From Streptomyces sp. NBC_00659 (GTDB lineage Bacteria; Actinomycetota; Actinomycetes; Streptomycetales; Streptomycetaceae): DNA of 64,000 bases. Both the position numbers and the translations under genes were made by a program. Numbering within the stretch: the stretch's first letter is position 1; each line of letters starts with the position of its first letter. The notes below the pieces were generated by a model. The model made no database searches. It saw nothing but the letters and a program-made list of their open reading frames with translations, and was not told the DNA's origin. Positions 25,453 to 64,000 of the stretch are shown here, piece by piece. The stretch covers positions 8,990,001 to 9,054,000 of the forward strand of contig NZ_CP109031.1 in the NCBI RefSeq assembly GCF_036226925.1. The letters run 5' to 3'.

Positions 25453-25659
25453 TGCGATGCCTCCGAGGCGGCCGTGTTCCGTCGTACTGCGATGTCCCGT
25501 CACCGGCGCCTCCCACTCTGTCGAACCTCTTGTCGAGCACGTCCTCGTCCCTGGTCGCCTTCCCGCTGACGCGTCGTCCGGCCGCTCCACCGATCGGGCG
25601 GCGCGCACCCAGTACTGCCGCGGGTCGGGGCACAGACCGACGATTGTGCGCCGTGACCG

Positions 25660-42687: not shown

Positions 42688-42908
42688 CCGCACATTGTGC
42701 GGCCCGGCGGCACGGGTCCACGTCCGCCTGCGTGACCGGCACACCTGTCCGCCAGGAGTACTCCTCGAGGATGACCCCGCCGCCGGGTCCTCCGCGGGGA
42801 GGGCCGTATGTCGGTGCCCCGGCGGACGCGCCGCCGCCGCCTCCGCCCGTACGTTCACCGGACTTGCGCAGGACATCGGCTCATCGACCATGAAGGACGG
42901 ACACACCC

Positions 42909-48063: not shown

Positions 48064-48168
48064 TCTCATGGAAACCATGCGCGTCGTCTCCGAGTCAGGG
48101 CGCGAGGTCTGTGAGGGGCTGCTCCTCGTACGTCGTCCGCAATGACCTGGCGAAGAACCGGAGTCCTC

Positions 48169-49134
48169 ATGGTGCGTCCCACACATTCCCTCGGATCAGG
48201 CGTGAGACGGGCGGTGACCGCCTTCCTCCTGGGGCTCGCCCTCCTGGCGGGGTCCGGCGGTCTGACTCGGGCGGAAGCCGCGGAAAGTCCGACGGTCTAC
48301 CCGACGGCCGCCTACGCCACCACGGTCGGCCAGGACCCGGCCGACATCTACTACCCCGCGACCACCACCCGCCGACTGCCGGTGGCGCTGTTGCTCCAGG
48401 GCGCGAACGTCGACAAGTCGGCCTACGAGGGGTACGCCCGTACGGTCGCGGCATTCGGCTTCGTCGTGGTGGTGCCCAACCACACCAGGACCCTGTACGG
48501 CGTGCCCGGACTGTGGGCCTCCTCCGACGAGGGGCTCGCCGCGGTGACATGGGCCGCTGCCGAGAACGCCGACGCCGACAGCCCGCTGGCAGGACGCATC
48601 GACGCCGACACCCTGGTTCTGCTCGGCCATTCCTTCGGTGGCGCCGCGGGGCTCGGCACCGTGCAGGGGCAGTGCGTCCCGCCGTTCTGCTTCGGCCTGC
48701 CCGCCGGCGCCGTCAAGCCCGTCCAACTGAAAGCCGCCGCGTTTTTCGGCACGAACAACGTGCCCCCCGGCGGTGGGGCGGCCCCGGCCGTCGACAACAC
48801 CGGAGTGCCCCTGGCGCTCGTCCAGGGGAGCGTCGACGGCGTTGCCGCACCCGCCGCGGCCCAGGCGACCTACGAGGCACTGACCGCCACGCCGAAGGCG
48901 CTGGTCACGGTCACCGGGGCCAATCATTACGGCATCACCGATGCGCAGAACCCGCCCGGGGCGCTCCCGGACGCGTCGGTCCAGACGCTCGATCAGACCG
49001 AGAGCATCCGTACCTCGGCCCGTTGGTCCGCGCTGTTCCTGAGGGCGAGCCTGGGTGACGCACTGGCCGCCGCGTACGTACGTCAGTGGGGGGACGGCGT
49101 CGACAACGCGGTGACCGTCCAGCAGGCCTACTGA
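48169..49134 (+). CDS. Secreted alpha/beta hydrolase, chlorophyllase/PAF-acetylhydrolase-like
   Basis: 321 residues. ATG 48169 is preferred to 48142 because GGAG lies 5 bases upstream. Signal peptide about 1-40. Oxyanion region LPVALLLQGANVDKSAYEGY, nucleophile LLGHSFGGAAG, likely Asp in LVQGSVDGVAAP and His in VTVTGANHYG. It shares PVALLL-G-NV---AY, GHS-GG and TGANH with the hydrolase inside the nearby operon (55404-56390), so the two are probably related. Cysteines in QGQCVPPFCFG may pair. Ester hydrolysis outside the cell is the safest call; chlorophyll or lipid esters are candidates. Confidence 0.7.
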   Translation: MVRPTHSLGSGVRRAVTAFLLGLALLAGSGGLTRAEAAESPTVYPTAAYATTVGQDPADIYYPATTTRRLPVALLLQGANVDKSAYEGYARTVAAFGFVVVVPNHTRTLYGVPGLWASSDEGLAAVTWAAAENADADSPLAGRIDADTLVLLGHSFGGAAGLGTVQGQCVPPFCFGLPAGAVKPVQLKAAAFFGTNNVPPGGGAAPAVDNTGVPLALVQGSVDGVAAPAAAQATYEALTATPKALVTVTGANHYGITDAQNPPGALPDASVQTLDQTESIRTSARWSALFLRASLGDALAAAYVRQWGDGVDNAVTVQQAY

Positions 49135-49963: not shown

Positions 49964-50710
49964 TCAGTGCTCGCGCAACAGTGAACCCACCCCCTGCACC
50001 TGGTCGTCGACCCCGTTGTCGCGCAGTGCCATCCACCAGGTGGCGGCGTTGATGGCGATCACCGGGAGCCCGAGCCAGCGCTCCGCCTCGTCGGCCAGGG
50101 CGACCATGGACAGGTTGGTCCCGCACTGCACGATCGCCTCGACCCCTTCCAGGAGGGCGAGTTCCGTCAGGGCCTCGCGCAGCCGCCGCTCCTCGACGTG
50201 GGCGATGGACACGGCCGTCGGACAGCGCAGTCCGGTGACACCGGCGACCTCGAAGCCCAACTCGGTGAAGAACTGCCGCACGTTGGCATCGCCGACGGGC
50301 TGATAAGGGGTCAGTACGCCGATGCGCCGCGCGTCGAACAGGCGCAGCGCCCGGTCGCAGGCCTCGGCGCCGGTGGCGACCCGCAGACCGGTGGCCTCGT
50401 GGATCTGGCGGATGAAGGCGCGGTTGCCCTCGACACCGCCCCAGAACGTCTCGGCCGACATGCCCATCACCATGTAGTCGGGTTCGCACGTGAGCACCCG
50501 CTCGCAGGCCGCTCCGATCTCGTCGCGGATCTGCTCCAGCAGCCGCTCCATCCCGGCGTCGCCGGACATGTCCTGGTCCCGGATGTGGATGCGCGAGAAG
50601 TGCGAGGTCACTCCGGGCACGGTCATCCGGTGGAAGTCCGGTTCCACGATGGTGTTGGTACTGGGGGCGATGACGCCGAACTTGTGGCGCCAGCCGAGGG
50701 CGTCGGTCAT
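49964..50710 (-). CDS. Arylmalonate decarboxylase/maleate isomerase-family protein
   Basis: 248 residues. FGVIAPSTNTIVEPDFHRM is the N-terminal substrate loop of the Asp/Glu racemase-superfamily subgroup holding maleate cis-trans isomerase and arylmalonate decarboxylase. One catalytic Cys is clear (Cys196 in IVQCGTNLS); the first Cys position is Ser85 (VMGMSAETFW). Maleate isomerase uses two Cys, arylmalonate decarboxylase only the second, so a decarboxylase-like reaction fits better, but the substrate is open. ATG overlaps the upstream stop (ATGA). Last gene of the operon, ahead of a terminator. Confidence 0.7.
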   Translation of the reverse strand: MTDALGWRHKFGVIAPSTNTIVEPDFHRMTVPGVTSHFSRIHIRDQDMSGDAGMERLLEQIRDEIGAACERVLTCEPDYMVMGMSAETFWGGVEGNRAFIRQIHEATGLRVATGAEACDRALRLFDARRIGVLTPYQPVGDANVRQFFTELGFEVAGVTGLRCPTAVSIAHVEERRLREALTELALLEGVEAIVQCGTNLSMVALADEAERWLGLPVIAINAATWWMALRDNGVDDQVQGVGSLLREH

Positions 50711-51405
50711 GGGTTCACCGTTCTGGACAGGCCGGCCGGGTGCGGCGCGGAGCGGGACAGTGAGCGGGCGAGCCTGAGGGCGGCGACCAGGAGGGCCGCC
50801 TGGGTGAGCGTGTTGCAGCCCTGCTCGGTCCACTGCAGGGCGACGCTCTGGTCGGGGCGGGCGGCCAGCGGCCCCAGCACGTACATGCCGAGCAGCCACA
50901 GGCCCGCCGCCGAGGCGGCGGGAGTGTCCCCGGCGGCCCGTGCGAGCAGGATGAGACGGACCCCGCACACGGTGACCGCGGCGATGGCCAGCACCATGAC
51001 GGGCAGGGTCGAGGCCAGGAGCAGGGACAGCGCGCCGAGCAGCGTCCAGGTCGCGGCGAACCCCCACAGCGGGGGGACCCGGCCCGTTCCCCGTGGCGAG
51101 GGGACCGGGGACGGCAGGGACAGCAGGGCGTGGGCCAGCAGCAGGAAGCCCGCGGCGAGCAGCGGGAACAGCGCCTTGTTCAGGGGCTGGACGTCCGGCC
51201 CGTCGAGGGACACGACGAGCTTCCACACCGCCTTGGACAGCCCGCCCGCCAGGATCAGCGCGGTCGCCGTGGCGGCCATGGTCCCGGCCCGGGGCACGGC
51301 CCGGCCGACCGGCCGGATCAGACAGGCCGCCCCGATACCGGTCAGGACGACCGGCACGAAGTCCTGGAGCGCGAGCGCGACGGGGTAGTCCACCGGCGCG
51401 CTCAC
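50707..51405 (-). CDS. Integral membrane protein in the tetrapyrrole-like operon
   Basis: 232 residues from GTG 51405, which overlaps the SDR stop (GTGA). Six helices (ALALQDFVPVVLTGIGAACL, AATATALILAGGLSKAVWKL, LNKALFPLLAAGFLLLAHAL, FAATWTLLGALSLLLASTLP). No known transport motif. A role in uptake of, or anchoring near, a hydrophobic substrate is only a guess. Confidence 0.6.
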   Translation of the reverse strand: MSAPVDYPVALALQDFVPVVLTGIGAACLIRPVGRAVPRAGTMAATATALILAGGLSKAVWKLVVSLDGPDVQPLNKALFPLLAAGFLLLAHALLSLPSPVPSPRGTGRVPPLWGFAATWTLLGALSLLLASTLPVMVLAIAAVTVCGVRLILLARAAGDTPAASAAGLWLLGMYVLGPLAARPDQSVALQWTEQGCNTLTQAALLVAALRLARSLSRSAPHPAGLSRTVNP

Positions 51406-52331
51406 AGAGCCGCCTCCCTGCCGTGCCCGGACCCGCGCTCCGGGTTCGGCGTGTCCGCAGGTCCTGCCGGTTCCGCAGACGCCGCAGACGCCGTCGGCGG
51501 TCCGGGCGGTCCGGGCGGTGCGGACGGCAGGATGTCGCGGGTGCGGAATCCGGCGGTCGCGAACCGTGCCGCCGCCCTGCGCCGGGTCAGCCGGGCGATC
51601 CGGCCGCCGTTGCGGGTCCGGTCCGCCAGGATCCGGCCGGCCAGCCAGGGCGCCACGGTCTCCACCCGGTCCGCCAGGATGTTCAGCACCTTGCGGACCT
51701 TCGCGTACTCCGCCGGGCCGTAGTCGTGCAGCAGGAGGTCGGTCACGACCATGCCCGGCGACAGGCGCAGCGCCCGTACGTCGTGCGGTGCGGTCACCGC
51801 CCGTTCGCGCAGGTCCGCGGCCAGGGCCTGGGTGAGGTAGGTGACGGCGCGCTTGGTGGTGCCGTACGCGCCGAGGCCCGGCAGGACGCGGCCGTCGGAG
51901 CCGAGGCCCTCCATGTTCCACAGGCGTCCGTGGCCTTGGGCGAGGAACCCGTTCAGCGCGACGGCCGAACCATGGGCGGTGCCCACCAGGTTCGTGGCGA
52001 CGACGGCTTCCAGGTCACCGTCCGGCAGCTCCCAGAGCGGCCGTCGGACGGTGGCCGCCCCGGCGTTGTTGATCCATACGTCGACGCCGCCGAAGGTGTC
52101 GAGGGCCGCGTCCCACAGGTCCTGCACCTGGCCCCGGTCGGTGACGTCCGCCGCCCGTCCGAGCAGCCGGTCCGCCGGGGCGTCCAGGACCGCGGCGGCC
52201 TCCTTCACGGTCCGTGGTCCGCGACCGGACACCACGACGCGGCAGCCCCGGTCGAGGAAGGAGCGGGCCAGTCCGTGGCCGATGCCGCGGGTGCTGCCCG
52301 TGACCACCACGACGGGCGCCCGCGTTCTCAT
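51402..52331 (-). CDS. Short-chain dehydrogenase resembling chlorophyll b reductase (NYC1/NOL)
   Basis: 309 residues. NAD(P) motif TGSTRGIG (11-18), NNAG (88-91), Tyr156 and Lys160 in YGTTK. Beyond the general SDR marks, it shares with plant NOL/NYC1 the strings DVWINNAG, RLWNMEGLGSDGRVLP (plant: FNMDGAGSGG), LSPGMVVTDLLL and LNILADRVETVAPWL (plant: FNIICELPETVARTL). These plant enzymes reduce the 7-formyl group of chlorophyll b. Compared from memory, so the call is of family, not of substrate. C-terminal Pro/Ala/Gly-rich tail of about 40 residues. Start overlaps the upstream stop (ATGA). Confidence 0.7.
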   Translation of the reverse strand: MRTRAPVVVVTGSTRGIGHGLARSFLDRGCRVVVSGRGPRTVKEAAAVLDAPADRLLGRAADVTDRGQVQDLWDAALDTFGGVDVWINNAGAATVRRPLWELPDGDLEAVVATNLVGTAHGSAVALNGFLAQGHGRLWNMEGLGSDGRVLPGLGAYGTTKRAVTYLTQALAADLRERAVTAPHDVRALRLSPGMVVTDLLLHDYGPAEYAKVRKVLNILADRVETVAPWLAGRILADRTRNGGRIARLTRRRAAARFATAGFRTRDILPSAPPGPPGPPTASAASAEPAGPADTPNPERGSGHGREAAL

Positions 52332-53293
52332 GTCTCCTCCCAGTCGAGGACGCCGTGCACGACGGCGGCCAGGACGTTGCCGTCGAACAGTTCCCAGGTG
52401 ACGGCCAGCCGTCCGCCCGCGGTCATGCCGGGGGTGGCGTCCAGGGCGAACTCGCGTCCCTTGACCTTGTGCACGTCCCCGTCGGTGAAGTGCCAGACCG
52501 GGTAGTTGGCCCGCCCGAACGCCTGGGCGTTGCCCCAGGCCCCCGGTCCTTCCCAGAACTCCCGGGTGCCGTCCCGGCGGCGTACGACGGTGAAGGCGCG
52601 GTCCACGCCGGCGCCCGTCCAGCGGACCCGGTGTTCGGTGCGCAGCAGGTCCAGCGGGGTGAGCCGGTCCTCCACCTCGACCGTTCCCAGCGGCTTCTGG
52701 TCGGCGCCCCACACCTCGCACGTTCCCCGGAAGGCGCCGGACCGCTTGGTGGGCAGGATCCATGGCACGGGACCGGACCGGGTCTCCGCGGCGAGATGGG
52801 CGTCGATCGCGGCGCGTGTCGCCGGATCGTCGGCCCCGGCGCCGACGGTGCGCCGGTAGAGGCCGTTGAAGCAGCCCACCACCGTCCATCCCTGGTAGAG
52901 GACGGACGAGTAGACCTGGGTCTCGCCGTCGGGCAGGACGTGGTTCCAGGTGTTGAGGTCGACCTGCCAGCCGGGCCCGTAGTAGTGGGCGTCCACGAAC
53001 GAGCCGTACGGCTGGCCCGTTCCGTGGAAGTCGGGACCGTGGTAGATCCGGTTGTCGTCGGCGTCGGTCACGGCGAAGGCGAAGGGCGCGGCGAGCCGGA
53101 ACCGGCCGGCCAGCGGGCCGCCGCCCTCGAGACCGCCGTCCATGCGGTAGACCGTGCCTCCGTCCTCGAACGCCGAGGAACGGCGGATGTCCTCGAATCC
53201 GCACCACGTGCCCGTCGCGTCGAACAGCGAGGGCCGGCCGTGCCATTCACCGGTGATGCGCCGCTGCCAGGCGCTGGGCTCCGGGGCGCTCAC
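52328..53293 (-). CDS. Beta-rich protein of unknown function, operon member
   Basis: 321 residues, GTG start overlapping the upstream RCCR-like gene (GTGA). Rich in Trp, Gly, Tyr and Asp, with many predicted short strands: WHGRPSLFDATGTWCGFEDI, DNRIYHGPDFHGTGQPYGSF, LYQGWTVVGCFNGLYRRT and TREFWEGPGAWGN. The composition suggests one or two beta-barrels of lipocalin/FABP type that could hold a hydrophobic ligand, but this is inference; I do not recognise the family. No signal peptide. Its position between an SDR and RCCR-like gene hints at binding or modifying the same tetrapyrrole. Confidence 0.6.
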   Translation of the reverse strand: MSAPEPSAWQRRITGEWHGRPSLFDATGTWCGFEDIRRSSAFEDGGTVYRMDGGLEGGGPLAGRFRLAAPFAFAVTDADDNRIYHGPDFHGTGQPYGSFVDAHYYGPGWQVDLNTWNHVLPDGETQVYSSVLYQGWTVVGCFNGLYRRTVGAGADDPATRAAIDAHLAAETRSGPVPWILPTKRSGAFRGTCEVWGADQKPLGTVEVEDRLTPLDLLRTEHRVRWTGAGVDRAFTVVRRRDGTREFWEGPGAWGNAQAFGRANYPVWHFTDGDVHKVKGREFALDATPGMTAGGRLAVTWELFDGNVLAAVVHGVLDWEET

Positions 53294-54105
53294 GAGGCGT
53301 CCCCTTCCGCGCCGCCCGGGCCGCCGGTGATCAGCAGGCCGCGCAGTGCGTCGGTCGTCGCCGGGCCGAGCAGCCGGTCGACCTGCGCCCACACCGGATC
53401 GATCTCCCGGCTGAACAGCGCGGCCCGCAGCCGCCGGTCGCGGTCGGCGAGGTCCGTGTCCTTCACCTCGTCGGCCGCTGCCGGAGGGAAGTCCCCGGCC
53501 AGGTTCAGCCAGTGCTCCAGGTAGTTTTCGGCGATCGGTCCTACGGCCCGCAGTGCCGCCTCGTCGGCACGGTGCACGAGCATCCACGGTGACATCAGGG
53601 CGCGCTGGCGCGGACCGATCGCCGCGGGGGCCAGCCCGGGGATCTCCGCCGCGCTGCCGTGCGCCGGGGTCAGGGAGCCGTACACGGCGTCGGTGTACGC
53701 GGGATGGGAGGCCAGGTCCGCCCGCTGCACCAGGTCGAGGTGAAAGGCGTAACCCTCCCCGGCGTGCACGGAGTCGAGGGTGAAGTGCGGCAGCGGGCCC
53801 TCGGCCGCGCCGAACGCGAACACCATGTGGCTGTCGAGGCCGATGGGCGGGACCACCAGCGAGATGTGCACGACGGACGCGACGGCGCCGCTCCCGGTGA
53901 AATACCGGACGGAGCCGACCTCACCGGGGAAGGCCTCACTCGTCAACCGCCCCCAGGGCGTGGGGGATTCGGCGACGTCCGTGACGGCTGTGAGGCGGTC
54001 GAGGACGCGCGCGGACAGCGCGGCGGGCGGGGACTGCGCCGCCGCGCGGGCCGGTGGGACGGACGGGGGACGGGCCGCTGTCTGATCCGGCATCTCGGGG
54101 TTCAC
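53290..54105 (-). CDS. RCCR-like protein 2 (divergent)
   Basis: 271 residues from GTG 54105, which overlaps the Rieske stop (GTGA); ATG 54093 is an alternative. By eye it follows the plant red chlorophyll catabolite reductase: PHFTLDSVHAGEGYAFHLDL and QRADLASHPAY parallel the plant PNFVVELI… LILDLPHRKDLV, and SREIDPVWAQVDRLLG parallels the C-terminal acidic region. The plant substrate-site Glu (VVELI) would be Asp here (TLDSV), so an acid is kept. RCCR reduces red chlorophyll catabolite with ferredoxin, without cofactor. TTDALRGLL near the end matches the other paralogue (TTDRLVRAL). Activity is unproven. Confidence 0.6.
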   Translation of the reverse strand: MNPEMPDQTAARPPSVPPARAAAQSPPAALSARVLDRLTAVTDVAESPTPWGRLTSEAFPGEVGSVRYFTGSGAVASVVHISLVVPPIGLDSHMVFAFGAAEGPLPHFTLDSVHAGEGYAFHLDLVQRADLASHPAYTDAVYGSLTPAHGSAAEIPGLAPAAIGPRQRALMSPWMLVHRADEAALRAVGPIAENYLEHWLNLAGDFPPAAADEVKDTDLADRDRRLRAALFSREIDPVWAQVDRLLGPATTDALRGLLITGGPGGAEGDAS

Positions 54106-55319
54106 TCTCCGGACGGACGCGGTTCGGGGGCGTCGTCCTTGTCGGGGCCGGACGCGGACTGGGCGCCGTCGACCGTGGGGTGGAGGCCGTGCGCCTTCTG
54201 CTCCCAGGCGCGGGCGAACTCGGGAATCTCGCGGCGGCCGGGGGAGGCGATCACCGTCGAGGTGCGCTCGGGCACGTCCCCCGTGACGCGGTCCCCGTCG
54301 CCCACCGTCCAGCCCTTGGCGGCGAGTTCCTGCCTCCTGCGCCGGTAGGCGACCGAGATCAGGTCGGAACGCAGGTGGAGTTCCGCGCCCAGGTCGGCGG
54401 GGAGCAGCTCCGGCCGGGTCCCGTCCACCACCGGGGCGTCCTGTCCGAAGATGCGGTACACCCGCTTGCGCGTGTTGGCGTCGGCCCAGGAACCGGTGAA
54501 GAAGTCGCGCAGAGCGATCCACTTGACGAGGGTGGTGGTCTCGTCGACCGGGATGTTCGTGTCGTAGATGATCATGTTGCCGAACGGCAGCCGCACATGC
54601 AGTTTGACGAGGTTCGGCAGCATCCAGCCCGCGGTGCTCACCACCGGTGGCCGGTCCCGGCCCTGCGAACGCCGGTCCTGGTAGAGCCTCGACCACAGTC
54701 CCTTCGCGGTCGGCGGGTGCATCGAGACGGTGGCGAACGCCGACCACTCGTCGGGCTGTTCGAGGGTGTACTCCTCGACCTCCGGGCGCTCCGGGTTGCC
54801 GAACGAACCCGCGTGCACGAACGGGGTGTGCGCGATGTCGCAGCCGTTCTCCAGCACCCGCTCGTAGTTGGAGTGCCAGAGGTACTCGCCGGTCACCGCC
54901 CTGAAGCGGCCGCCGTCCTCCAACAGCTCATCGAACTCGGGCCACTTGGGGATGGGCGGCCGTTCCTCCTCGGGCAGGTCGCCGAGGAACACCCAGACGA
55001 ACCCGTACCGTTCGCGCGCCGGGTACGCGTCGACCCGGGCCTTCCTGGGGATGCCACGGCCGGGCAGGTTGGCGGGGATCCTGGTGCACGCCCCGCCGGG
55101 CTCGAAGCGCCAGCCGTGGTAGGGGCACACCACGCAGTCCCCGGCGACGCTGCCGCCGGACAGGGCCGCGCCCCGGTGCGCGCAGAGGTCGGACAGGGCC
55201 ACCGGGCGCCCGTCCTCGGTGCGGTACAGCACCAGACTCTGGCCCAGACAGGTCACTTTCAGGGGCCGGCGTCCCACACGGTCGGCGAACTCGACCGCGT
55301 ACCAGAAGTTCTTGAGCAT
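54102..55319 (-). CDS. Rieske non-heme iron oxygenase, pheophorbide a oxygenase-like
   Basis: 405 residues. Rieske cluster ligands Cys46/His48 (LCAHRG) and Cys65/His68 (VCPYHGW); mononuclear iron site Asp161, His164, His169 in ENGCDIAHTPFVHAG. Sequence order and the FWYAVEFADRV start fit the one-chain VanA/PaO-type oxygenases. Plant PaO opens the chlorin ring; it also has a C-terminal membrane anchor and a CxxC motif, neither of which is present here, so this form should be soluble. An electron-transfer partner (ferredoxin) is not encoded nearby. GAGGAG is 9 bases before the ATG. Function assigned from family and the adjacent RCCR-like genes. Confidence 0.75.
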   Translation of the reverse strand: MLKNFWYAVEFADRVGRRPLKVTCLGQSLVLYRTEDGRPVALSDLCAHRGAALSGGSVAGDCVVCPYHGWRFEPGGACTRIPANLPGRGIPRKARVDAYPARERYGFVWVFLGDLPEEERPPIPKWPEFDELLEDGGRFRAVTGEYLWHSNYERVLENGCDIAHTPFVHAGSFGNPERPEVEEYTLEQPDEWSAFATVSMHPPTAKGLWSRLYQDRRSQGRDRPPVVSTAGWMLPNLVKLHVRLPFGNMIIYDTNIPVDETTTLVKWIALRDFFTGSWADANTRKRVYRIFGQDAPVVDGTRPELLPADLGAELHLRSDLISVAYRRRRQELAAKGWTVGDGDRVTGDVPERTSTVIASPGRREIPEFARAWEQKAHGLHPTVDGAQSASGPDKDDAPEPRPSGE

Positions 55320-55403
55320 CCGTGGCGCTCCTCGGCGTCGTTCTCCACTGGGGTGCGGGACTTGGGCCCGCGGAGCCGTGCGGGGCTTTCGTGCGCGGGG
55401 AGT

Positions 55404-56390
55404 TCAGCGGCGTCGAACCGCGATGAGCCCGGGGTGCGGGGGCGCCAGCAGTTCGTCGAGCCGGGACCGGGCGGCGTCGTCGCCGCGCAGGTGGGCGGTG
55501 CAGAACAGGGTGATCAGGCGGGACAGCAGGTCTCTGGCGGCACCGTCGTCGTCCGGGACCGTCCGTTCCAGGAACCCGCGCGCACCGGTGGGGTCCGCGG
55601 GGTGGCAGGCGGTGAAGTGGTTCGCGCCCGTCAGGGTGGCCAGGACGTTGCCGCCCGCCGCGTCGGGGACGGCCTCGTCGAACGTACGGGCCACCGGATC
55701 CGGCGGCGCCCCGCCGGGCGGTCCGGTGTAGCGGTCCGCGCTCGCGGCGATCACACCGTCGTGTTCGCCGGACAGCAGCAGTGCCGGCGCGCCCCCGCCC
55801 GCCGGCAGGACGGTCCCCGGTGGCCAGCCGAGCAGGTCGGCGACGACGGTGTGGGCTCCGTAGGCGAACACCGCCCGGACCCCCGGGGTCAGACCGGCCG
55901 ACTGGAGCGCCACCGTGCCACCCGCCGAGTGCCCGCCGAGGGCGACCCGGTCGGTGTCGAGCAGCCCGGCCAGCGGCGGCCTGGTGCCGAGTTCCCGTAC
56001 GGCTGCCAGCAGCGCGCTGATGAGCGGACTGGTCGGACGGGTGCCGTACCCGGCCGGTGCCGCCGCTTCGAGGTCCACCGCCGGGGTGAGGCCGTGACTC
56101 CCGGCGAACAGCTCGCCCACCAGGTCCGCGGTCACGGTGACCACGCCCGCCGACGCGAGCGCGACGGCCAGCCAACGGTAGGCGTCCTGACCGACGTTGA
56201 TGCCCGGAAGGAGCAGCGCCACCGGGTACGGGGCTCCCTCGGGGTCGGTCGGGATCTCGCCGGAGAGCCGCTCGGCGTCGGAGCCGGTGGGCCGCGCCGG
56301 ATAGAACACCCGCAGGTGCGCGGTGTCGAACGGCTCCTTGAGGCCAGGTACCCGGCAGGCCCACCACAGGGCCCGTACGCCGGCCGTCAT
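55404..56390 (-). CDS. Chlorophyllase-like alpha/beta hydrolase
   Basis: 328 residues, ATG overlapping the stop of the RCCR-like gene 1 (ATGA). PYPVALLLPGINVGQDAYRW forms the oxyanion region, GGHSAGGTVALQ the nucleophile elbow (plant chlorophyllase has GHSRGG), LLLSGEHDGVIAA the Asp and LTGANHFTACHP the His. The chlorophyllase/PAF-acetylhydrolase family cleaves long-chain esters; removal of phytol from a chlorophyll derivative would fit the operon. No signal peptide, so intracellular, unlike the related hydrolase at 48169. The gap of 84 bases before the Rieske gene is the second largest in the series. Confidence 0.7.
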   Translation of the reverse strand: MTAGVRALWWACRVPGLKEPFDTAHLRVFYPARPTGSDAERLSGEIPTDPEGAPYPVALLLPGINVGQDAYRWLAVALASAGVVTVTADLVGELFAGSHGLTPAVDLEAAAPAGYGTRPTSPLISALLAAVRELGTRPPLAGLLDTDRVALGGHSAGGTVALQSAGLTPGVRAVFAYGAHTVVADLLGWPPGTVLPAGGGAPALLLSGEHDGVIAASADRYTGPPGGAPPDPVARTFDEAVPDAAGGNVLATLTGANHFTACHPADPTGARGFLERTVPDDDGAARDLLSRLITLFCTAHLRGDDAARSRLDELLAPPHPGLIAVRRR

Positions 56391-57193
56391 CTCGGCCTCG
56401 GCAGTTCCCGGTCCCCGCCCCACAGGGCCCGGACCAGGCGGTCGGTCGTCTCCTCGCCGAAGTAGCGCACCCCCATGACGTTGGCGGGGTCCCGCTCCGC
56501 GATGTTGCGCCGGGTGGCCAGGTCCGCGGCGGCCAGGATGTCCCGCTCGTCCGGGGGCACGGCCTCTGCCGCGTCCACCCATCCGAGCCAGCGGTCCACG
56601 TGCGCGTGGGTGAGCGAGCGGACCAGGCCGACGTGCTCCTGGTCGCGGGGCATCGAGTAGCAGTACGCGGTCGGGGACAGACTCGCCCGGATGAACCCCG
56701 CCCGGCTGGTGAACCAGTCCAGGGACGGGTGCTGTTCACGGGTGGCGAGCCACTCCTCGTCGAGCGGGGCGTAGTAGCGGTCGTAGTACGCGCCGTCGGC
56801 GACCAGGTTCGCGCGGGGCACCGAGTCGAGATAGAACCAGCCTCCCGGCCAGCACAGCAGGGCGATGCCCAGGTGCGGTACCCGGATGTGCGGGCCCAGC
56901 CACACCGTCAGGTGCAGGTTGGCGAAGCCGCGGGTCGGGTTGCCGAGCCAGGAGTGCACCATCCAGTCGACCTCGGGCCCGGTGTAGGCGGCCAGCGATC
57001 CTCCCGGGCTCTGCGGGGGCGCGCCGTAGGAGTCCAGGCCGAGCGTGGAGGGATCGCGGCGCAGTTCGAAGCGGGCGTCGATCTTGGACTTGAGTTCCGC
57101 GAGCAGTTCCCGCCACTGCTCGAAGGTCTCGGTCACGTCGGTGACGGGCGCGTCGTCCGTCATGTCCTGCACGGCCTTGAGGGTCTCGGCCAC
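56387..57193 (-). CDS. RCCR-like protein 1
   Basis: 268 residues, GTG 57193 with GAGGAG about 7 bases upstream. Its second half lines up by eye with plant red chlorophyll catabolite reductase: FYLDSVPRANLVADGAYYDR (plant LILDLPHRKDLVLNPDY), FIRASLSPTAYCYSM (plant FVRSAFSPTASML) and VRYFGEETTDRLVRAL (plant RMFGEEVSSRVVHA). An acidic residue near the end (AERDP) is kept, while the plant substrate-site Glu seems replaced by Ala (GIALL). RCCR and the bilin reductases share one fold and reduce linear tetrapyrroles with ferredoxin. The first 70 residues are not recognised. Two paralogues could form a heterodimer or use different substrates. Confidence 0.65.
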   Translation of the reverse strand: MAETLKAVQDMTDDAPVTDVTETFEQWRELLAELKSKIDARFELRRDPSTLGLDSYGAPPQSPGGSLAAYTGPEVDWMVHSWLGNPTRGFANLHLTVWLGPHIRVPHLGIALLCWPGGWFYLDSVPRANLVADGAYYDRYYAPLDEEWLATREQHPSLDWFTSRAGFIRASLSPTAYCYSMPRDQEHVGLVRSLTHAHVDRWLGWVDAAEAVPPDERDILAAADLATRRNIAERDPANVMGVRYFGEETTDRLVRALWGGDRELPRPR

Positions 57194-57259
57194 GGAGCAG
57201 CTCCTCGGGGTTCGCGGTGCCGGCGTCGAAGGGCCGGGCGGGGCAAGGGTCCGGAGCGG

Positions 57260-59014
57260 TCAGGCCGGACGGGGGGCCGGCGCGCCGGCCGGGGCGACCA
57301 GCGCGCCGGACAGCCGCCAGGGCCGTCCGTCGACCAGGTCGGTGGAGCGGGACAGCATCCGGCGCAGGGCCTGGGCGGGGTGGATCTCGGCCAGGGTGAG
57401 GGGGCCCCTCGCGGTGGTGGTACGGGGATGACTGATGCGGCCGGTGAAGCCGCCTCCGTGGTTCTGCCAGAGTCCGAAGTCGGACGGAAGCGCGTGCACC
57501 GCGCCCTGGCCGTGACCGGCCGCGACGAGGTTGAGCCGGTTCTCGGCGGAGCGCTCGGGCAGGCCCAGGGCGCTCTCCCAGGGCTCCAGGCCCGTGAAGC
57601 AGACCGCCACGGTGTCGGCGCCGGCCAGCGCGGCGAGCCGGAAGGTCTCCGGATGGACGCTGTCGTCCCCGGCGACCAGGGCGATCCGTCCCCACACGGC
57701 GTCATGGACCTCGGGCGGACCCGCCCGCCCGGTCGCCCACGAGGCATGGCGGGCACTCGGATGGAGTTGGGGGACGCGCAGCACCGGCCCGCCCGCTCCG
57801 GTCAGCACGCCCAGGTGTACGTCTCCCGCCGGCACGGTGCAGGCGAGCAGGGCGTCGGTGCCGCTCAGCGCGTCCGCCAGCGTTCGCAGCGCCCCGGCGG
57901 CCAGAGCGTCGGCCTCGGTCCCCGTCAGGTGCGCGGGGACGCGGCCTGAGGGAAAGAGGAACAGCTCGGGAAGGACCAGCAGGCAGGCGCCTCGCGCGGC
58001 GGCGTCGGCCGCCAGCCGGGCCGCGTCCTCGACGGCCGCCCGTCCGGTACCCGAGGGCCGCAGCACCGCGGCCGTGACACTCTCGGCGCGCCGTCCGCCG
58101 AAGGCGGGCACCGGGCGCGGCGAACGCGCTATCGGGCCGTACAGGTCGGGACGGCGGGCCGCGAACACGTCGGTGCCGTCGGGCCGGTGCTTGTCGAGCG
58201 CGCCGAGCGGATCGATGTCGGCCACGGCGAGAGCCTCGCCGGTGCGCGGAGCCTTGGCGGCCACCGTGCCGTCGGGCGCGACGATCTGACTTTCGCCGGC
58301 GCCGTGGAGCGCCTCGGGCGGAATGCCCAGCCCCTCCGCGACGGCGGCGAGCCGGGCTTCGGGGATGAGGGGACCGACCTTGTTCGCGGCCACCACCCAC
58401 ACCTTGTTCTCCGCGGCCCGGACGGGAATGTGCAGCGACGCCTCGTCCAGCGCGAAGGAGTTGAGGCTGTTGAGAAGCAACCGCGCCCCGCGCAGGGACA
58501 GAGAACGGCACACCTCGTTGATCACCCCTTCCATGCAGGAGTAGAGGCCGACCGGCCCGAGGCCGGTCTCCACCACCGGGCCCTCGGTGTCGGCCGGGTC
58601 GAGATGGTCGTTCTCGCTGCCCATCAGTGTCTGTTTGTCGGCCCGTCCCACGAGTGTTCCGTCCGGGGCGAAGAGCAGGCTCGTCGCGGTGATCCGCATA
58701 CCGTCGGCCCGGCCGGGGACCGGAGGCGTGGCGGGTGCGGCGAGGGTGACGTGCAGCTTGACGTACAGCCCGTGCCGCGCGGCAGTGGCCGCCACCTCGG
58801 TGAGGAAGGTGTCCCCGAGGACGCAGGCCTCGCGCAGCGCGTGCTCCCTGTCCTCGTACCAGGACAGGTGATTGCAGAACTCGGGCAGGACGACCAGGCC
58901 GGCCTTCCGGGCCGCCGCCGCCCCGACGGCGCGCAGTACCGCGGCGAGGTTGGCCGACCGGTCGATTCCCACGGCGAACTGGGCCGCCGCGACGCGCACG
59001 GAGACAGGGGGCAT
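57260..59014 (-). CDS. Nitrilase-superfamily protein with a second, degenerate domain
   Basis: 584 residues from ATG 59014 (GGGAG upstream). Domain 1 (about 1-290) has the full carbon-nitrogen hydrolase triad Glu45 (VVLPEFCNHL), Lys127 (RADKQTLM) and Cys160 (LYSCMEGVIN). Domain 2 (about 310-575) repeats the fold (LLVLPELFLFP) but the Lys and Cys positions are Gln and Gly (RVPQLHPS, ALVAGDDSVHP), so it should be inactive and perhaps structural. Members hydrolyse amides, nitriles or carbamoyl groups. In this operon an open-chain amide from a maleimide or lactam ring is a possible substrate. It lies 66 bases before RCCR-like gene 1. Confidence 0.75.
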   Translation of the reverse strand: MPPVSVRVAAAQFAVGIDRSANLAAVLRAVGAAAARKAGLVVLPEFCNHLSWYEDREHALREACVLGDTFLTEVAATAARHGLYVKLHVTLAAPATPPVPGRADGMRITATSLLFAPDGTLVGRADKQTLMGSENDHLDPADTEGPVVETGLGPVGLYSCMEGVINEVCRSLSLRGARLLLNSLNSFALDEASLHIPVRAAENKVWVVAANKVGPLIPEARLAAVAEGLGIPPEALHGAGESQIVAPDGTVAAKAPRTGEALAVADIDPLGALDKHRPDGTDVFAARRPDLYGPIARSPRPVPAFGGRRAESVTAAVLRPSGTGRAAVEDAARLAADAAARGACLLVLPELFLFPSGRVPAHLTGTEADALAAGALRTLADALSGTDALLACTVPAGDVHLGVLTGAGGPVLRVPQLHPSARHASWATGRAGPPEVHDAVWGRIALVAGDDSVHPETFRLAALAGADTVAVCFTGLEPWESALGLPERSAENRLNLVAAGHGQGAVHALPSDFGLWQNHGGGFTGRISHPRTTTARGPLTLAEIHPAQALRRMLSRSTDLVDGRPWRLSGALVAPAGAPAPRPA

Positions 59015-59121
59015 CACACTCTCCCTTGGTTCCCCTGGCGGAACACTGTTTCCTGAACATACACTCGCCGCCAGCCTCGCGACAGAGGGGAATTCCCTTG
59101 TCGCCCAGCGGAAGGACCCCT

Positions 59122-59433
59122 GTGCTCACTCATGTCGTGCTGATGAGGTTCAAGGATCCGTCCGACGCACCCGAGGCCCGCGACAGACTGGAACAACTGG
59201 CCCCGCTCGTAAGGGAGATACGTTCCATGACGCTCGGGCTCGACGTCCTGGACACGCCCGTCTCCTACCACCTGAGCATGATCACCAGGCATGCCGGGCC
59301 GGACGAACTCGCCGCCTATCAGCGGCATCCGGAGCACCTGCTGCTCGCGCGATGGCTGCGCCCCCGGCTCGCGGACCGGGTCGTCGTCGACAGCGTCGAC
59401 GACGACCCGCGCGAGGCAGCGGACGACGACTGA
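59122..59433 (+). CDS. Dabb (stress-responsive A/B barrel) domain protein
   Basis: 103 residues from GTG 59122 with AAGGA about 5 bases upstream. LTHVVLMRFKDPSDAPEARD, SMTLGLDVLDTPVSYHLSMI and LAAYQRHPEHLLLARWLRPR are the marks of the small Dabb ferredoxin-like fold, a dimeric barrel that includes heme- or polyketide-handling enzymes. It is the only plus-strand gene within the large minus-strand series, divergent from the nitrilase gene, and may share its control region. Role unknown; binding of a hydrophobic ring compound would fit. Confidence 0.7.
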   Translation: MLTHVVLMRFKDPSDAPEARDRLEQLAPLVREIRSMTLGLDVLDTPVSYHLSMITRHAGPDELAAYQRHPEHLLLARWLRPRLADRVVVDSVDDDPREAADDD

Positions 59434-59520
59434 TCAAGTGGGCTTCGCCCAGGGCCCGTTCTCGGCAAGGGCGCACCGGGCCGCGGGGCACGACCCCGAG
59501 CGGCCCGGCGGGGCGGAGGG

Positions 59521-61005
59521 TCACGGCGGCGACGGGGGACCGGGCGGGCCGACGGGGACCGGGTAGGCCCCGGGTGCCATCCTGGCACCACCCCCGCGGA
59601 ACGCGGCCGGCGCGTGCGTCACACACGGCTGTACGTACTCCAGCAGGCCCTCCGCGCCGTACTCGCGCCCGTGGCCGCTGCGCTTGACCCCGCCGAACGG
59701 CGCGCGCAGCGACATGCCCGTCCGGTTGTGGGTGTTGACGAAGCAGAAGCCCGCGTCGAGACGGCGCGCGACACCGAAGGCCCGCTCCTCGTCCGAGCTC
59801 CAGACCGAGGCGCCCAGGCCGAGTTCACCCGCGCCCGCCCGTGCGATCACCTCGTCCTCGGTGTCGTAGGCGAGCACCGGTACCAGCGGGCCGAACTGCT
59901 CCTCCCGCACCACCGGGGCCCGGTCGTCCAGGCCGAGCAGCGCCGTGGGCCTCACGAAGTGCCCTGCCGACGCGTCGGCCGACGGGCACAGCTCACCGAG
60001 CGGGACCGTCCGGCCGCCGCGGCGCAGGCCGTCGTCGACGAGGGCGCGCAGCCGCGTCGCCGACTCCGCCGAGATCACGGGCCCCACGCTCACCCCGGGG
60101 ACGAGGGGATCGCCGAGCCGTACGACGCGCGCGGCGGCGGCCGTGAAGGCCTCCACGAAGCGCTCGTACCGGGCCCGCGGCACGTAGATCCGTTTGACCG
60201 CCATGCACACCTGGCCGGCGGTGGACATCGCCGCGAGCACCAGACGGTCCATGGCGGAGTCGTCCAGCGGGGCGTCGTCGAGGAGGACGGCCGCGTCGTT
60301 CCCGCCGAGTTCCATCACCGTCGGGGTCAGCGCCGCGGCGGCGGCCGCCCCGATGGCGCGGGCGGCTGTCGCACCGCCCGTGAAGGCCACCTTGTAGACG
60401 CCGGGATGCCCGGCCAGGTGGGTGGCCACCGGGGCGTGCCCGTGCAGGACGTGCAGCAGTCCGGCCGGGAAATGTTCCGCCAGGCGCGTCAGGAGGGCGC
60501 TGACGGCCAGCGGGGCGAGCGGGGAGGGCTTGACCAGCAGCGCGTTGCCCGCGACCAGCGCGGGGGCGAGTTTCAGCGCGGTCAGCACCACCGGCGCGTT
60601 CCAGGGAGTGAGGGCGGCGACCGGTCCGTACGGTCGCTGACGGACCGTCAATCTTCCCTGTGCATCGTCGATATGGCGGTCCGCGAGCAGACCCGGGGCC
60701 GCGTCGGCGTACCAGCGCAGCACCGCGGCGGAGAAGAGGATCTCCCCGTGGCAGTCGGCCAGCGGCTTGCCCGACTCCCGTGCGAGCAGCGGCGCCTGCG
60801 TCGTCGCCGCCGCCTCCAGGCTCGCCGCGGCGGAGAGCAGCGCGGCCGCGCGGTCGGACACGGCCGTCCGCGCCCAGTCCGGGGCGGCCCGTCCGGCGGC
60901 GGCCACGGCACCGTCCACCCCGCGCGACGTCGCGGGTGCCACGTGGCCGACGATCTCGGCGCTCCTGGCAGGGTTGTGAATGCTGATCAGGTCGTCGACG
61001 GGCAT
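59521..61005 (-). CDS. NAD(P)-dependent aldehyde dehydrogenase 1
   Basis: 494 residues. ALDH motifs: NAPVVLTALKLAPALVAGNA with VKPSPLAPL, VAFTGGATAARAIG, general base Glu in TVMELGGNDA and nucleophile Cys in STAGQVCMAVKRIYV; late REEQFGPLVPVLAYD and GRE-type end. It resembles succinate-semialdehyde and benzaldehyde dehydrogenases. A Gly/Pro tail (PVPVGPPGPPSPP) is unusual. It follows the monooxygenase gene by 78 bases. Probably oxidises an aldehyde released in the pathway. Confidence 0.85.
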   Translation of the reverse strand: MPVDDLISIHNPARSAEIVGHVAPATSRGVDGAVAAAGRAAPDWARTAVSDRAAALLSAAASLEAAATTQAPLLARESGKPLADCHGEILFSAAVLRWYADAAPGLLADRHIDDAQGRLTVRQRPYGPVAALTPWNAPVVLTALKLAPALVAGNALLVKPSPLAPLAVSALLTRLAEHFPAGLLHVLHGHAPVATHLAGHPGVYKVAFTGGATAARAIGAAAAAALTPTVMELGGNDAAVLLDDAPLDDSAMDRLVLAAMSTAGQVCMAVKRIYVPRARYERFVEAFTAAAARVVRLGDPLVPGVSVGPVISAESATRLRALVDDGLRRGGRTVPLGELCPSADASAGHFVRPTALLGLDDRAPVVREEQFGPLVPVLAYDTEDEVIARAGAGELGLGASVWSSDEERAFGVARRLDAGFCFVNTHNRTGMSLRAPFGGVKRSGHGREYGAEGLLEYVQPCVTHAPAAFRGGGARMAPGAYPVPVGPPGPPSPP

Positions 61006-61083
61006 GGCCCTCCTCGGCCCCGGTCGTCGGTGAGGCTTGGTCTCGGCGGTGCCGCGGCCGTCGGCCGCCTCACCGCCGTGGTG

Positions 61084-62286
61084 TCACACGGACATCCGCA
61101 GGGACGCGATCATCGAACTGCGCAGCAGCGCCTGCCGGGCACGGGCCGGATCGGCAGCCGTGGCCCGCAGTTCGTCCGCGAGCGCGGAGCGCAGTGCCGG
61201 GTCGCGGACTCTGAGCCGTTCCCAGTTGCGGTGTGTCTGGGCTCCGACGTACGTCAGCGCGCAGTCCCGCCGGGCCGCGGCGATACGGTCCAGAGCCTCG
61301 TCCGCGCCGGACCGGCCGTCCACGACGGCATGGAGCGCGGCGCCCATCAGCACCGCGTCGTGGATGCCGCTGTTCATGCCCATGCCGCCCAGCGGGTTGT
61401 TGACGTGGGCCGCGTCCCCGCACAGGAGGATCCGGCCCAGCCGGAAGGTGTCGGCGACGCGCTGGTGCACGCGGTAGAGGCCGGCTTGGACGACCCGCCA
61501 CGGCGGACCGGTCCGACCTGCGGAGGCCGCGCGCAGGGCGCTCAACCGGCCCGGCAGTCGGGCGAGTTCGGCCGCGTCCGTGGTGTCGCCCGGGGTCGGC
61601 AGCAGGATGCGCCAGTGGTCGGGGGTGCGCAGCAGGACCAGCCATTCGTCGGGGTCCATGACGTAGGCGATGGGGGCGAGCCCGGGAAGTTCGGCCGTCA
61701 GGTCGGCCTCGACGGACGCGACGAGGAAGCGTTCCGGGTAGGTCATGCCGTGGAATCCGACCCCCAGTGAGCGGCGCACCGCCGAATGGGCACCGTCGGC
61801 GGCGACCAGGTGGGATCCGCGCGCCGTCGTCCCGTCGCTCAGGACGGCGTCCACCGCGTGCGGATCCTGGCGGACTGCGGTCACCCGGGCGCCGAAACGC
61901 ACCTCGCTTCCCGGCAGTCGGGACAGTGCGCGCAGGAGCAGAGGAGTGAGCTTGCCCTGTTCCAGCTGCACGCGGTAGGGGTGCCGGGTGTCCGGGGCGA
62001 GCACGGCCAGGTCGAGCTCCGCGACGGGACCCGTGCGCCGGTCGCGGTACTGGAAGGTGCGTACGGTCAGGCCCTGTTCGAGCACCGGGCCGAGCACACC
62101 GAGGTCCTCCAGCATCTCCAGGGTCGGCGGGTGGAAGGTCGAGGCCCTCGATTCGGAGGAGAGCCCGGGACCCGCCTCCAGTACGGTGACGGGCACCCCG
62201 CGCCGGGCGAGCACCAGCGCGGCCGTCAGTCCCACCGGGCCCGCCCCGGCGACCAGGACGCGACCCTCGGCCGGCGTGCCCGTCAC
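61084..62286 (-). CDS. FAD-dependent aromatic-type monooxygenase
   Basis: 400 residues, GTG start overlapping the stop of aldehyde dehydrogenase 2 (GTGA). Group A flavin hydroxylase features: VLVAGAGPVGLTAALVLARR (FAD-binding), DGAHSAVRRSLG (second motif) and LCGDAAHVNNPLGGMGMNSG (ribityl-binding). These enzymes add one oxygen to rings such as phenols, pyrroles or quinolines using NAD(P)H. In this operon a pyrrole- or maleimide-like piece, or a side-chain ring, could be the substrate. No ferredoxin or reductase needed. Confidence 0.85.
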   Translation of the reverse strand: MTGTPAEGRVLVAGAGPVGLTAALVLARRGVPVTVLEAGPGLSSESRASTFHPPTLEMLEDLGVLGPVLEQGLTVRTFQYRDRRTGPVAELDLAVLAPDTRHPYRVQLEQGKLTPLLLRALSRLPGSEVRFGARVTAVRQDPHAVDAVLSDGTTARGSHLVAADGAHSAVRRSLGVGFHGMTYPERFLVASVEADLTAELPGLAPIAYVMDPDEWLVLLRTPDHWRILLPTPGDTTDAAELARLPGRLSALRAASAGRTGPPWRVVQAGLYRVHQRVADTFRLGRILLCGDAAHVNNPLGGMGMNSGIHDAVLMGAALHAVVDGRSGADEALDRIAAARRDCALTYVGAQTHRNWERLRVRDPALRSALADELRATAADPARARQALLRSSMIASLRMSV

Positions 62287-63827
62287 CGGGATCTCTCCGT
62301 GGCGGGGCCGGGGCCCTGTCCGGTGTGCAGCGCGAAAGCCGCCTCGACGCCCGTGACCCGGCTGCCCGTGAAGTGCAGCAGCGTCTCGTCGGTACCCTCG
62401 TCGACCAGACCCGACAGCCCCCAGGCGGGGCGCGGGGTGTCCAGGTGCAGGCTCATCAACGACGAGCCGTTGACCTTCACCTCGCCCGCCCTGATCCGGC
62501 GTGCCACCGCGAGGGCGGCCTCCTCGTCCGTCCCGGCCACATAGCCCTCCAGCCCGTACCCGGTGCTGTTGGCCAGGGCGACAGCCTCGTCCTCGTCGTC
62601 GTAGGCATGGACGGTGGCCACCGGGCCGAACACCTCCTCGCGGGCGGCCTGTTCGGGGACGCCGGTCAGCAGGACCGGCGCGAGGAAGCTGCCCGTGCCG
62701 GGGATCTCGGTGAAGGTGTGCGGTGTACCGCCCGCCGCGACGAGCGTGTCGAGTGCCGCCGTGACACGCCGGTGATGGCTCGAATGGGCGAGGGGCCCGT
62801 ACCCGGTGGCGGCGTCGAACGGCGCGCCGGCCTTCACGTCGGCCAGAGCGGCGCCGATTTCCGTCAGCAGTCCGGACAGCATCGCGGAGGGCACGATCAG
62901 CCGGCCCAGGGCGCGGCACCACTGGCCGTTGAGGGTCGTCAGGAGTTCGGTGGCCAGCCGGGCCGCCACCGCCGGGTTCGCGTCCGGCATCACGACGAGC
63001 GGGTTGTTCCCGCCGAGTTCGAGCTGGACGGGCTTCAGCCCCTGGCCGCAGACGGCGCCGACCGCCCTGCCCGCCGCCGTGCCGCCGGTGAACGACACCA
63101 CGCGCACGCGGGCGTCGGCCACCAGCCGGGCGCCGATGCGCCCGTCGCCGTGCAGGAGTTGGAGCACGCTGGGGGGAGCCCCGGCGGCCGCCAGCCCCTC
63201 GGCGGCGGCACGGACGAGCAACTGTGTTCCGTACGGCGCCAGTTCCGGTGCCTTGATGATGACGGGACAGCCCGCCGCCAGCGCGCTCGCCGCCTTGTGC
63301 GCGGCCATCGGCGCGGGCGCGTTGTACGGCACGACGCACAGGGCGGGTCCCAGTGGTGCCCGGCGCACCTCGACGGCGCGCCCGTCCGGCCGCAGCACCT
63401 CGGAGCGCAGCACACCGGCTCTCAGCCGGGCCGCGGCGAGCCGGAACGCGCCGCCGACGATGACACCCAGGCCGGAGGTCTGGGCCAGCGGAACGCCGGT
63501 GGCGAACGACTCGGCCCGCACGATGGTTTCCACGCGTTCCTCGACGGCGGCCGCCGCCGACTCCAGGGCGTCGGCGCGTGCGGTGTCCGCGAGCGACGCC
63601 CAGGTGCCGGCGGAGTGCAGAGAGTCGGCCGCCGCCAGGGCCTGTTCGGCGCGCGCGGCCGAACTGCCCAGCGCGGGACGCACCGTCGCGCCGGTGGCGG
63701 GATTCTCCAGCAGCGGCCCGAGCCGGTCGTGGCAGGCCTTCCAGCGGCCGTCCACGAGGTCCGCGGTCGCCTCCAGTTCCACGTCCCCCGTGTTCTTCGG
63801 GGCGTCTTCCATTGAGGGTGTGTTCAC
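62283..63827 (-). CDS. Aldehyde dehydrogenase 2
   Basis: 514 residues, GTG overlapping the upstream stop (GTGA). LGPALCVVPYNAPAPMAAHK, VIIKAPELAPYGTQLL, VVSFTGGTAAGRAVG, base Glu in LELGGNNPLVV, nucleophile Cys in LNGQWCRALGRLIV, and REEVFGPVATVHAYDDEDEA are all present. The active-site context GQWC differs from the usual GQ-C of the other copy, so it belongs to a distinct subgroup. About 60 N-terminal residues are acidic and not conserved. With the other ALDH and the monooxygenase it forms a likely oxidation module. Confidence 0.82.
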   Translation of the reverse strand: MNTPSMEDAPKNTGDVELEATADLVDGRWKACHDRLGPLLENPATGATVRPALGSSAARAEQALAAADSLHSAGTWASLADTARADALESAAAAVEERVETIVRAESFATGVPLAQTSGLGVIVGGAFRLAAARLRAGVLRSEVLRPDGRAVEVRRAPLGPALCVVPYNAPAPMAAHKAASALAAGCPVIIKAPELAPYGTQLLVRAAAEGLAAAGAPPSVLQLLHGDGRIGARLVADARVRVVSFTGGTAAGRAVGAVCGQGLKPVQLELGGNNPLVVMPDANPAVAARLATELLTTLNGQWCRALGRLIVPSAMLSGLLTEIGAALADVKAGAPFDAATGYGPLAHSSHHRRVTAALDTLVAAGGTPHTFTEIPGTGSFLAPVLLTGVPEQAAREEVFGPVATVHAYDDEDEAVALANSTGYGLEGYVAGTDEEAALAVARRIRAGEVKVNGSSLMSLHLDTPRPAWGLSGLVDEGTDETLLHFTGSRVTGVEAAFALHTGQGPGPATERSR

Positions 63828-64000
63828 CGGCCTGCCTCCAGGTTGGCGAAGAGCGCGTTCTCCAGGGAGTCGGTCGCCATCTTCGCGGCCTCCAGTCGGC
63901 CCCGTTCCGCGGGGAAGGTCATCACCAGACCCATCGCGAGGTCGCGGACCGTGCGGCCGATCGTGCCGTCCATGGTGGCGCCGGACGTGCCGCAGGCCTT
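63824..64000 (-). CDS. C-terminal end of a gene running off the right edge
   Basis: 58 codons ending at TGA, which overlaps the next start (GTGA). The end reads KACGTSGATMDGTIGRTVRD, then LAMGLVMTFPAERGRLEAAK. A C-terminal helix with such an IGRTVRD segment is reminiscent of acyl-CoA dehydrogenase-like flavoproteins, but the stretch is too short to decide. It shows that the operon begins outside the window. Confidence 0.5.
   Translation of the reverse strand, partial: KACGTSGATMDGTIGRTVRDLAMGLVMTFPAERGRLEAAKMATDSLENALFANLEAGR

Follow-up and report, generated by a model that had tools for sequence, protein, structure and literature searches.

Twelve genes on the minus strand of Streptomyces sp. 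NBC_00659, running from position 63827 down to 49964 of the window (the 64 kb stretch analysed here, positions 8,990,001-9,054,000 of the 9.66 Mb contig NZ_CP109031.1), constitute one widely conserved actinomycete operon, as judged from gene order and its retention in relatives. In this direction, the genes are termed ALD1, FMO, ALD2, NIT, RCC1, ABH, RIE, RCC2, BAR, SDR, MEM and AMD. We see about an even chance that the operon serves tetrapyrrole catabolism with a chlorophyll-type substrate, such that the ring would be opened, the open chain reduced and the resulting pieces degraded. The portion of this proposal drawn from sequence comprises gene order and its conservation, the protein families, the match of RCC1 to red chlorophyll catabolite reductase (RCCR), and two aspartates in RCC2. 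The operon looks catabolic as a whole, which agrees with the view of an initial annotation that its extra enzymes degrade the fragments further.

The genes are closely packed. Of the eleven junctions, seven overlap by 4 bases and three leave 66-84 bases between neighbouring genes. The only long gap, 506 bases between ALD2 and NIT, contains a plus-strand gene for a Dabb (A/B barrel) domain protein (DABB, 59026..59433; 1.4e-13, over cut-off). The tight series described in the initial annotation therefore stands in its main point, with the junctions as counted here. Conservation was scanned with an RCC1 profile against one genome per species, and the best 80 of 114 qualifying stretches were compared. 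These loci come from Streptomyces, Actinomadura, Thermomonospora, Micromonosporaceae, Nonomuraea, Streptosporangium and kin, and Nocardia. The window proteins recur in them with gene order mostly the same. RCC1 is present in 80/80 by selection, since the loci were chosen by its profile; RCC1, RIE, RCC2 and BAR occur jointly in 77/80, and DABB in 51/80. Counts for outer genes, here and below, are lower bounds because some loci end before reaching them. A full set of this kind had been thought new for an actinomycete, but it is common to dozens of actinomycete genomes.

Some loci depart from this arrangement. In two loci (L049 and L066), RCC1 relatives with 66-67% identity stand alone, with no other operon gene matched within 10 kb, and one locus (L051) is without BAR. 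Inversion onto the other strand has affected RIE and BAR in L016 (16000-18500) and NIT with the Dabb gene in L040 (7900-10000), and in both the gene set is still together.

RCC1 (56387..57193) belongs to the RCCR family. It scores 48.4 bits (9.4e-13) against a curated Pfam cut-off of 24.9 for RCC_reductase (PF06405), and its profile matches the Arabidopsis RCCR structure 3agb at 6.5e-15. Profile comparison places it closer to RCCR than to ferredoxin-dependent bilin reductases (FDBRs), for which it falls below the cut-off (PF05996; 14.4 bits versus 31). The acid pair of Arabidopsis RCCR lies at chain positions 111 and 248, which we take to be the catalytic residues Glu154 and Asp291 via the offset given by F218V. 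RCC1 does not carry this pair in full, as Ala111 replaces Glu154. Among its homologues, Asp235 is kept in 80/80, while the Glu154 position is Ala in 79/80 and Thr in 1/80. The relatives are named 'oxidoreductase', 'hypothetical protein' or 'Red chlorophyll catabolite reductase' in public records from dozens of actinomycete genomes, and the last of these names has been given in actinobacteria and in one Chloroflexota genome.

RCC2 (53290..54105; 78/80 loci) scores below the RCC_reductase cut-off (18.3 bits versus 24.9), but its predicted structure has the RCCR/bilin-reductase fold. Bilin reductases and RCCR tie in the structural comparison, and a motor-complex chain shows the same fold. Unlike RCC1, RCC2 has the full catalytic aspartate pair of FDBRs (Asp-99 and Asp-219 of GtPEBB), as Asp111 and Asp236 in 78/78 homologues. 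The two RCCR-like proteins of the initial annotation are thus upheld, RCC1 by Pfam and the 3agb profile and RCC2 by predicted fold, although the latter falls short in Pfam. A third RCCR type, with Val and Asp at the two catalytic positions, was seen in L109, L110, L116 and L115. Several genomes of one family have it at a distance of about 20 kb from the operon, whereas in G321 it is on a different contig.

RIE (54102..55319; 78/80 loci) is a Rieske non-heme iron oxygenase with Rieske (4.3e-21) and VanA_C (1.5e-27) domains over cut-off, and the Rieske [2Fe-2S] ligand and iron-site motifs are found in 78/78 homologues. The initial annotation had likened it to plant pheophorbide a oxygenase (PaO). 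This comparison is not supported: RIE is of VanA type, has no PaO C-terminal domain (PF08417) match at E <= 10, and has its nearest relatives in unrelated families. The domain is matched nowhere in the genome from which the window comes, whereas two of 14 control genomes match it, one of them over cut-off.

ABH (55404..56390; 76/80 loci) is an esterase-type alpha/beta hydrolase in the neighbourhood of PETase, dienelactone hydrolase and chlorophyllase. Its proposed identity as a chlorophyllase is not borne out, as it reaches 14.5 bits against a cut-off of 26 (PF07224). PETase (5.9e-05) scores better than Chlorophyllase (0.015), with both under cut-off. Across the ABH family (n=18), PETase and DLH are matched by 18/18 members and Chlorophyllase by 17/18 at E <= 0.05, and the best Chlorophyllase score of any member, 1.1e-06, ranks behind PETase, DLH and PAF-AH_p_II. 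A further hydrolase gene at 48142-49134 on the plus strand, convergent to the operon end, passes the PETase cut-off of Pfam (50.9 bits) and comes near that for Chlorophyllase (24.5 versus 26). Mg-dechelatase (SGR, PF12638) was found in 0/14 genomes, and likewise in none of the control set.

As the placement of RIE in PaO and of ABH among chlorophyllases is unsupported, the operon is not a transplanted plant gene set. It may instead represent a bacterial pathway that shares the logic of ring opening and reduction while using other protein families. As in the PaO/phyllobilin pathway of plants, an RCCR-family protein accompanies a Rieske oxygenase, the two genes here being adjacent in the set, with an esterase-type hydrolase and a short-chain dehydrogenase/reductase nearby. 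The operon differs in its VanA-type Rieske protein, its pair of RCCR-type proteins, of which one has FDBR residues, and its barrel protein. To our knowledge, its genes for further oxidation, amide hydrolysis and lyase reactions are also outside the plant chlorophyll route. The suggestion that this bacterium opens and reduces tetrapyrroles derived from chlorophyll remains plausible, although not on the ground of plant-like parts, of which the relation to RCCR is the one solid case.

Downstream of RCC2 lie BAR, SDR, MEM and AMD. SDR (51402..52331; 77/80 loci) encodes a short-chain dehydrogenase/reductase (adh_short 3.5e-33 on a longer frame) that matches only generic models and structures of this superfamily, with none of the 25 models shown near cut-off. 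The likeness to the plant chlorophyll b reductases NYC1/NOL put forward in the initial annotation is thus a putative one. BAR (52328..53293; 77/80 loci) is predicted to form a double calycin-type barrel with the fold of 2o62 (DUF3598) and possibly binds pigment; no Pfam family, DUF3598 included, matches it at E <= 10. MEM (50707..51405; 49/80 loci) is a membrane protein with several hydrophobic segments by hydropathy and no Pfam family close to its cut-off.

AMD (49964..50710; 77/80 loci) belongs to the arylmalonate decarboxylase/maleate isomerase superfamily (Pfam Amdase 2.2e-19, 70.4 bits versus a cut-off of 25.9). Its best solved-structure match is the putative maleate isomerase 2xed (4.9e-12). 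Maleate cis-trans isomerases use two catalytic cysteines. Among AMD homologues, Cys196 is present in 77/77 and Cys75 in 75/77. Cys75 stands opposite a cysteine in the 2xed alignment, and the alignment with arylmalonate decarboxylase sets the nearby MGMS opposite its MGTS.

The upstream half supplies oxidative and hydrolytic enzymes. NIT (57260..59014; 76/80 loci) is a 584-residue carbon-nitrogen hydrolase of the nitrilase/amidase superfamily, with CN_hydrolase at 1.3e-37 on its first half and weak similarity in its second, where a formamidase model covers residues 408-468 at 4.9e-4. ALD2 (59521..61005; Aldedh 5.1e-122; 68/80 loci) and ALD1 (62283..63827; Aldedh 2.4e-94; 65/80 loci) are aldehyde dehydrogenases. 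FMO (61084..62286; 64/80 loci), which overlaps ALD1 by 4 bases, is of the FAD-dependent monooxygenase type (FAD_binding_3 3.4e-54 on a longer frame). Upstream of these, FDMO (63827..64000, minus strand) is the 3' end of a protein with the acyl-CoA-dehydrogenase (ACAD) fold that continues beyond the window edge. It is 84% identical across 430 residues to a gene of a related locus (L004:1273-2571), and is probably a flavin monooxygenase because a flavin reductase gene adjoins it upstream (L083:1149-2519, beyond the window edge). Genes for an IclR-type regulator (L083:2679-3560) and an isochorismatase-family protein (L083:4655-5299) follow just outside the window, both on the plus strand of that locus and facing away from the operon. 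Relatives of the flavin reductase, the ACAD-fold protein and a second esterase-type hydrolase are present in 29/80, 51/80 and 35/80 loci, respectively.

Many of these components are standard parts of other degradative systems, including the VanA-type Rieske protein, the FAD monooxygenase, the ACAD-fold protein with its flavin reductase, the aldehyde dehydrogenases and the IclR-type regulator. The operon might therefore act on some other plant or soil compound, such as an alkaloid, terpenoid or aromatic ester, with the RCCR fold co-opted for a substrate that is not a tetrapyrrole. The loss of one catalytic acid in RCC1 and the recurrence of the fold in the motor-complex chain also fit this explanation, which we nevertheless consider improbable. 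The alternatives raised here are not fully exclusive of one another or of chlorophyll-type catabolism.

The most serious competing substrates are heme-derived bilins, namely biliverdin, bilirubin or phycobilins obtained externally or from the cell's own heme oxygenase. RCC1 and RCC2 would then work as normal bilin reductases, and the reduced bilin would be cut by RIE together with the remaining oxidases. Two observations weigh against a chlorophyll-type substrate and keep these bilins as the main rival. Heme oxygenase (PF01126) is present in nine of the 14 genomes tested out of 17 positive for RCC1, and RCC2, with its complete FDBR aspartate pair and its tied structural comparison, resembles a bilin reductase. 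However, PF01126 is absent from the other five genomes (G297, G321, G364, G252 and G294; completeness 93, 100, 70, 97 and 96%, respectively; other heme-degrading enzymes were not searched), and heme oxygenase is also absent from the cluster genes scanned. In these five, all of which carry RIE in the cluster, a different oxygenase must produce the open chain, unless it is taken up from outside. RCC1 is also closer to RCCR than to FDBRs. In addition, chlorophyll derivatives carry esters, whereas heme and biliverdin do not. The retention of an esterase-type hydrolase in 76/80 loci thus plausibly points to a chlorophyll-type substrate rather than heme. On this evidence we regard heme-derived bilins as unlikely, but as the alternative to be taken most seriously.

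If the substrate is of the chlorophyll type, its ester groups are predicted to be taken off by ABH and, in relatives, by the second esterase-type hydrolase as well. Ring opening at a methine bridge would fall to RIE, which comes from a different Rieske branch than PaO, the enzyme for this reaction in plants. RCC2, which has both proton donors, and RCC1 would next act as reductases of the open chain, with a ferredoxin encoded elsewhere supplying the electrons, while BAR may hold the pigment or pass it on. The later steps are more speculative. Flavin monooxygenases and aldehyde dehydrogenases might split the chain and oxidize formyl groups to yield one-ring imides (substituted maleimides), NIT and isochorismatase-type amidases might convert these imides to substituted maleates, and AMD might lead the maleates to central metabolites. 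Some relatives might share the step assigned to AMD with an alkylmalate-type lyase, an HMG-CoA-lyase-type enzyme or a CoA-transferase.

Some of the relatives repeatedly show, within the operon or next to it, families suited to such an end phase. A methylisocitrate-lyase-type gene in the L114 cluster also matches 2,3-dimethylmalate lyase. Its relatives are found in 19/80 loci, of which 15 have the gene between ALD1 and FMO, three have it directly upstream of FMO, and L066 carries its copy elsewhere. All 15 of the first group are from Micromonosporaceae, so this may reflect one event, although L108, L111 and L114 possess the gene as well. HMGL-type lyases, which pass the NCBIfam cut-off, are encoded in distant clusters, as are CoA-transferases; relatives of the two occur in only 9/80 and 5/80 loci, respectively. 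Upstream of one distant RCC1-RIE-RCC2-BAR core (L086:692-7848, plus strand) are genes for a CoA-transferase, an MmgE/PrpD protein and hydantoinase/oxoprolinase B and A, possibly a lactam- or imide-opening set. Maleimides are degradation products of tetrapyrrole pigments (PMC8669743). Judging by these families, imide opening could yield maleamates and maleates, whose hydration would give alkylmalates cleavable by the lyases seen here.

The same gene content bears on whether the operon might be biosynthetic, making a secondary metabolite by tailoring of an oligopyrrole or bilin. Clusters of this sort abound in Streptomyces and Nocardia, and the ACAD-fold protein weakly matches prodigiosin and prolyl-carrier-protein dehydrogenase models, far under their cut-offs. 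Nonetheless, the genes scanned include no carrier protein, synthetase or resistance gene. Many actinomycete genera, down to genomes of 1.0-1.7 Mb, retain the set, and one family has a central-metabolism-type lyase inside it. A biosynthetic role is therefore very unlikely.

A further alternative, which overlaps the substrate questions above, is that the core genes detoxify phototoxic tetrapyrroles, as in plants, rather than provide food, and that the genes downstream are part of another pathway encoded next to it. In favour of this, two actinobacterial genomes at a far greater distance keep the RCC1-RIE-RCC2-BAR core, at 40-48% identity, in one stretch amid otherwise largely different neighbours. 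However, a NIT relative lies near the core in both, relatives of AMD and FMO in one, and NIT and AMD are near-constant partners in the main set (76/80 and 77/80). We judge pure detoxification to be improbable.

The gene set is rare and patchy among genomes. RCC_reductase is found in 3/296 genomes of the phylum, and the RCC1 profile matches 15/394 genomes of the class, among which the window genome is the sole member of its genus. BAR is present in 12/394, all within these 15 (hypergeometric chance 1.8e-20, with kinship not corrected for), and the RCC1-positive genomes without it are G341 (99% complete) and two incomplete genomes (86% and 76%). RCC2 occurs in 17/17 RCC1-positive genomes tested versus 0/8 RCC1-negative genomes of the window's genus.

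Some carriers belong to a small-genome lineage of 1.0-1.7 Mb (G297, G321, G336, G351, G364 and G374). With fragments and the third RCCR type counted, each has 1-4 matches to the RCC1 profile and 2-5 to that of RCC2; those of 1.4-1.7 Mb (G297, G364 and G321; L112-L115) have 3-4 and 5, respectively. A single cluster in L112 comprises RIE, two RCC1, two RCC2, BAR and ABH, together with genes for a major-facilitator transporter, an ACAD-fold protein and an HMGL-type lyase. It also encodes an isochorismatase-type amidase that is 46% identical to the isochorismatase-family protein next to the window, and a Dabb gene follows this amidase gene in the same orientation. L114 has, in addition, the methylisocitrate-lyase-type gene.

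Bilin-reductase relatives in bacteria have been described before. RCCRs 'and related sequences' serve as the outgroup of a bilin reductase tree in PMC10151467. The pre-PcyA clusters treated there are similar in placing such relatives in non-photosynthetic bacteria, but carry genes for heme oxygenase, an Fe-S protein, V4R and globin, none of which is among the operon-region genes scanned. Similarly, the operon differs from systems with the FDBRs PebA, PebB, PcyA and HY2 in its lack of heme oxygenase, and in RCC1, with Ala at the Asp-99 position and a score below the FDBR cut-off. RCC_reductase family proteins have been noted in Nostoc and Anabaena, with two adjacent in N. punctiforme, although the portion of PMC2716323 consulted describes no operon with Rieske and BAR genes. 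An actinobacterial operon from Nocardioides also dismantles an N-heterocycle, lumichrome/riboflavin, by Rieske chemistry and hydrolysis (PMC12746152). It relies on a P450, a xanthine-oxidase-type enzyme, a thiamin-dependent decarboxylase and an extradiol dioxygenase, and no bilin enzyme is mentioned. Among top-ranked results from the open-access literature, with subscription papers mostly outside, we recognized no description of an operon like the present one, of a bacterial chlorophyll-breakdown pathway, or of its later steps.

Other genes in the window include those for an FtsX-type permease (42422-46015, plus strand), a glycoside hydrolase of family 3 (46204-47946, minus), a GH64 beta-1,3-glucanase with F5/8 domains (10563-11963, plus) and a PPDK_N/PEP-utiliser protein (22855-25608, minus).

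Chlorophyll turnover is estimated at about a billion tons per year (PMC12930011), and plants convert this pigment into linear phyllobilins (PMC4950323). We tentatively propose, at well short of even confidence, that some actinobacteria consume chlorophyll completely, including the lineage with 1.0-1.7 Mb genomes: a non-PaO Rieske enzyme would open the ring, paired RCC1 and RCC2 would reduce the product, and substituted maleimides would pass through alkylmaleates and alkylmalates to central metabolism. Since the operon is conserved in culturable actinomycetes, the question could be addressed directly by deletion, by growth on and induction by pigments, and with expressible proteins. If correct, this pathway would represent an entirely bacterial counterpart to the plant route, one that continues to full mineralization, and would give bilin-reductase-type enzymes a catabolic role. 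Its genes would provide markers for pigment recycling in metagenomes, and the operon might then be a relative of the source from which plants acquired RCCR.

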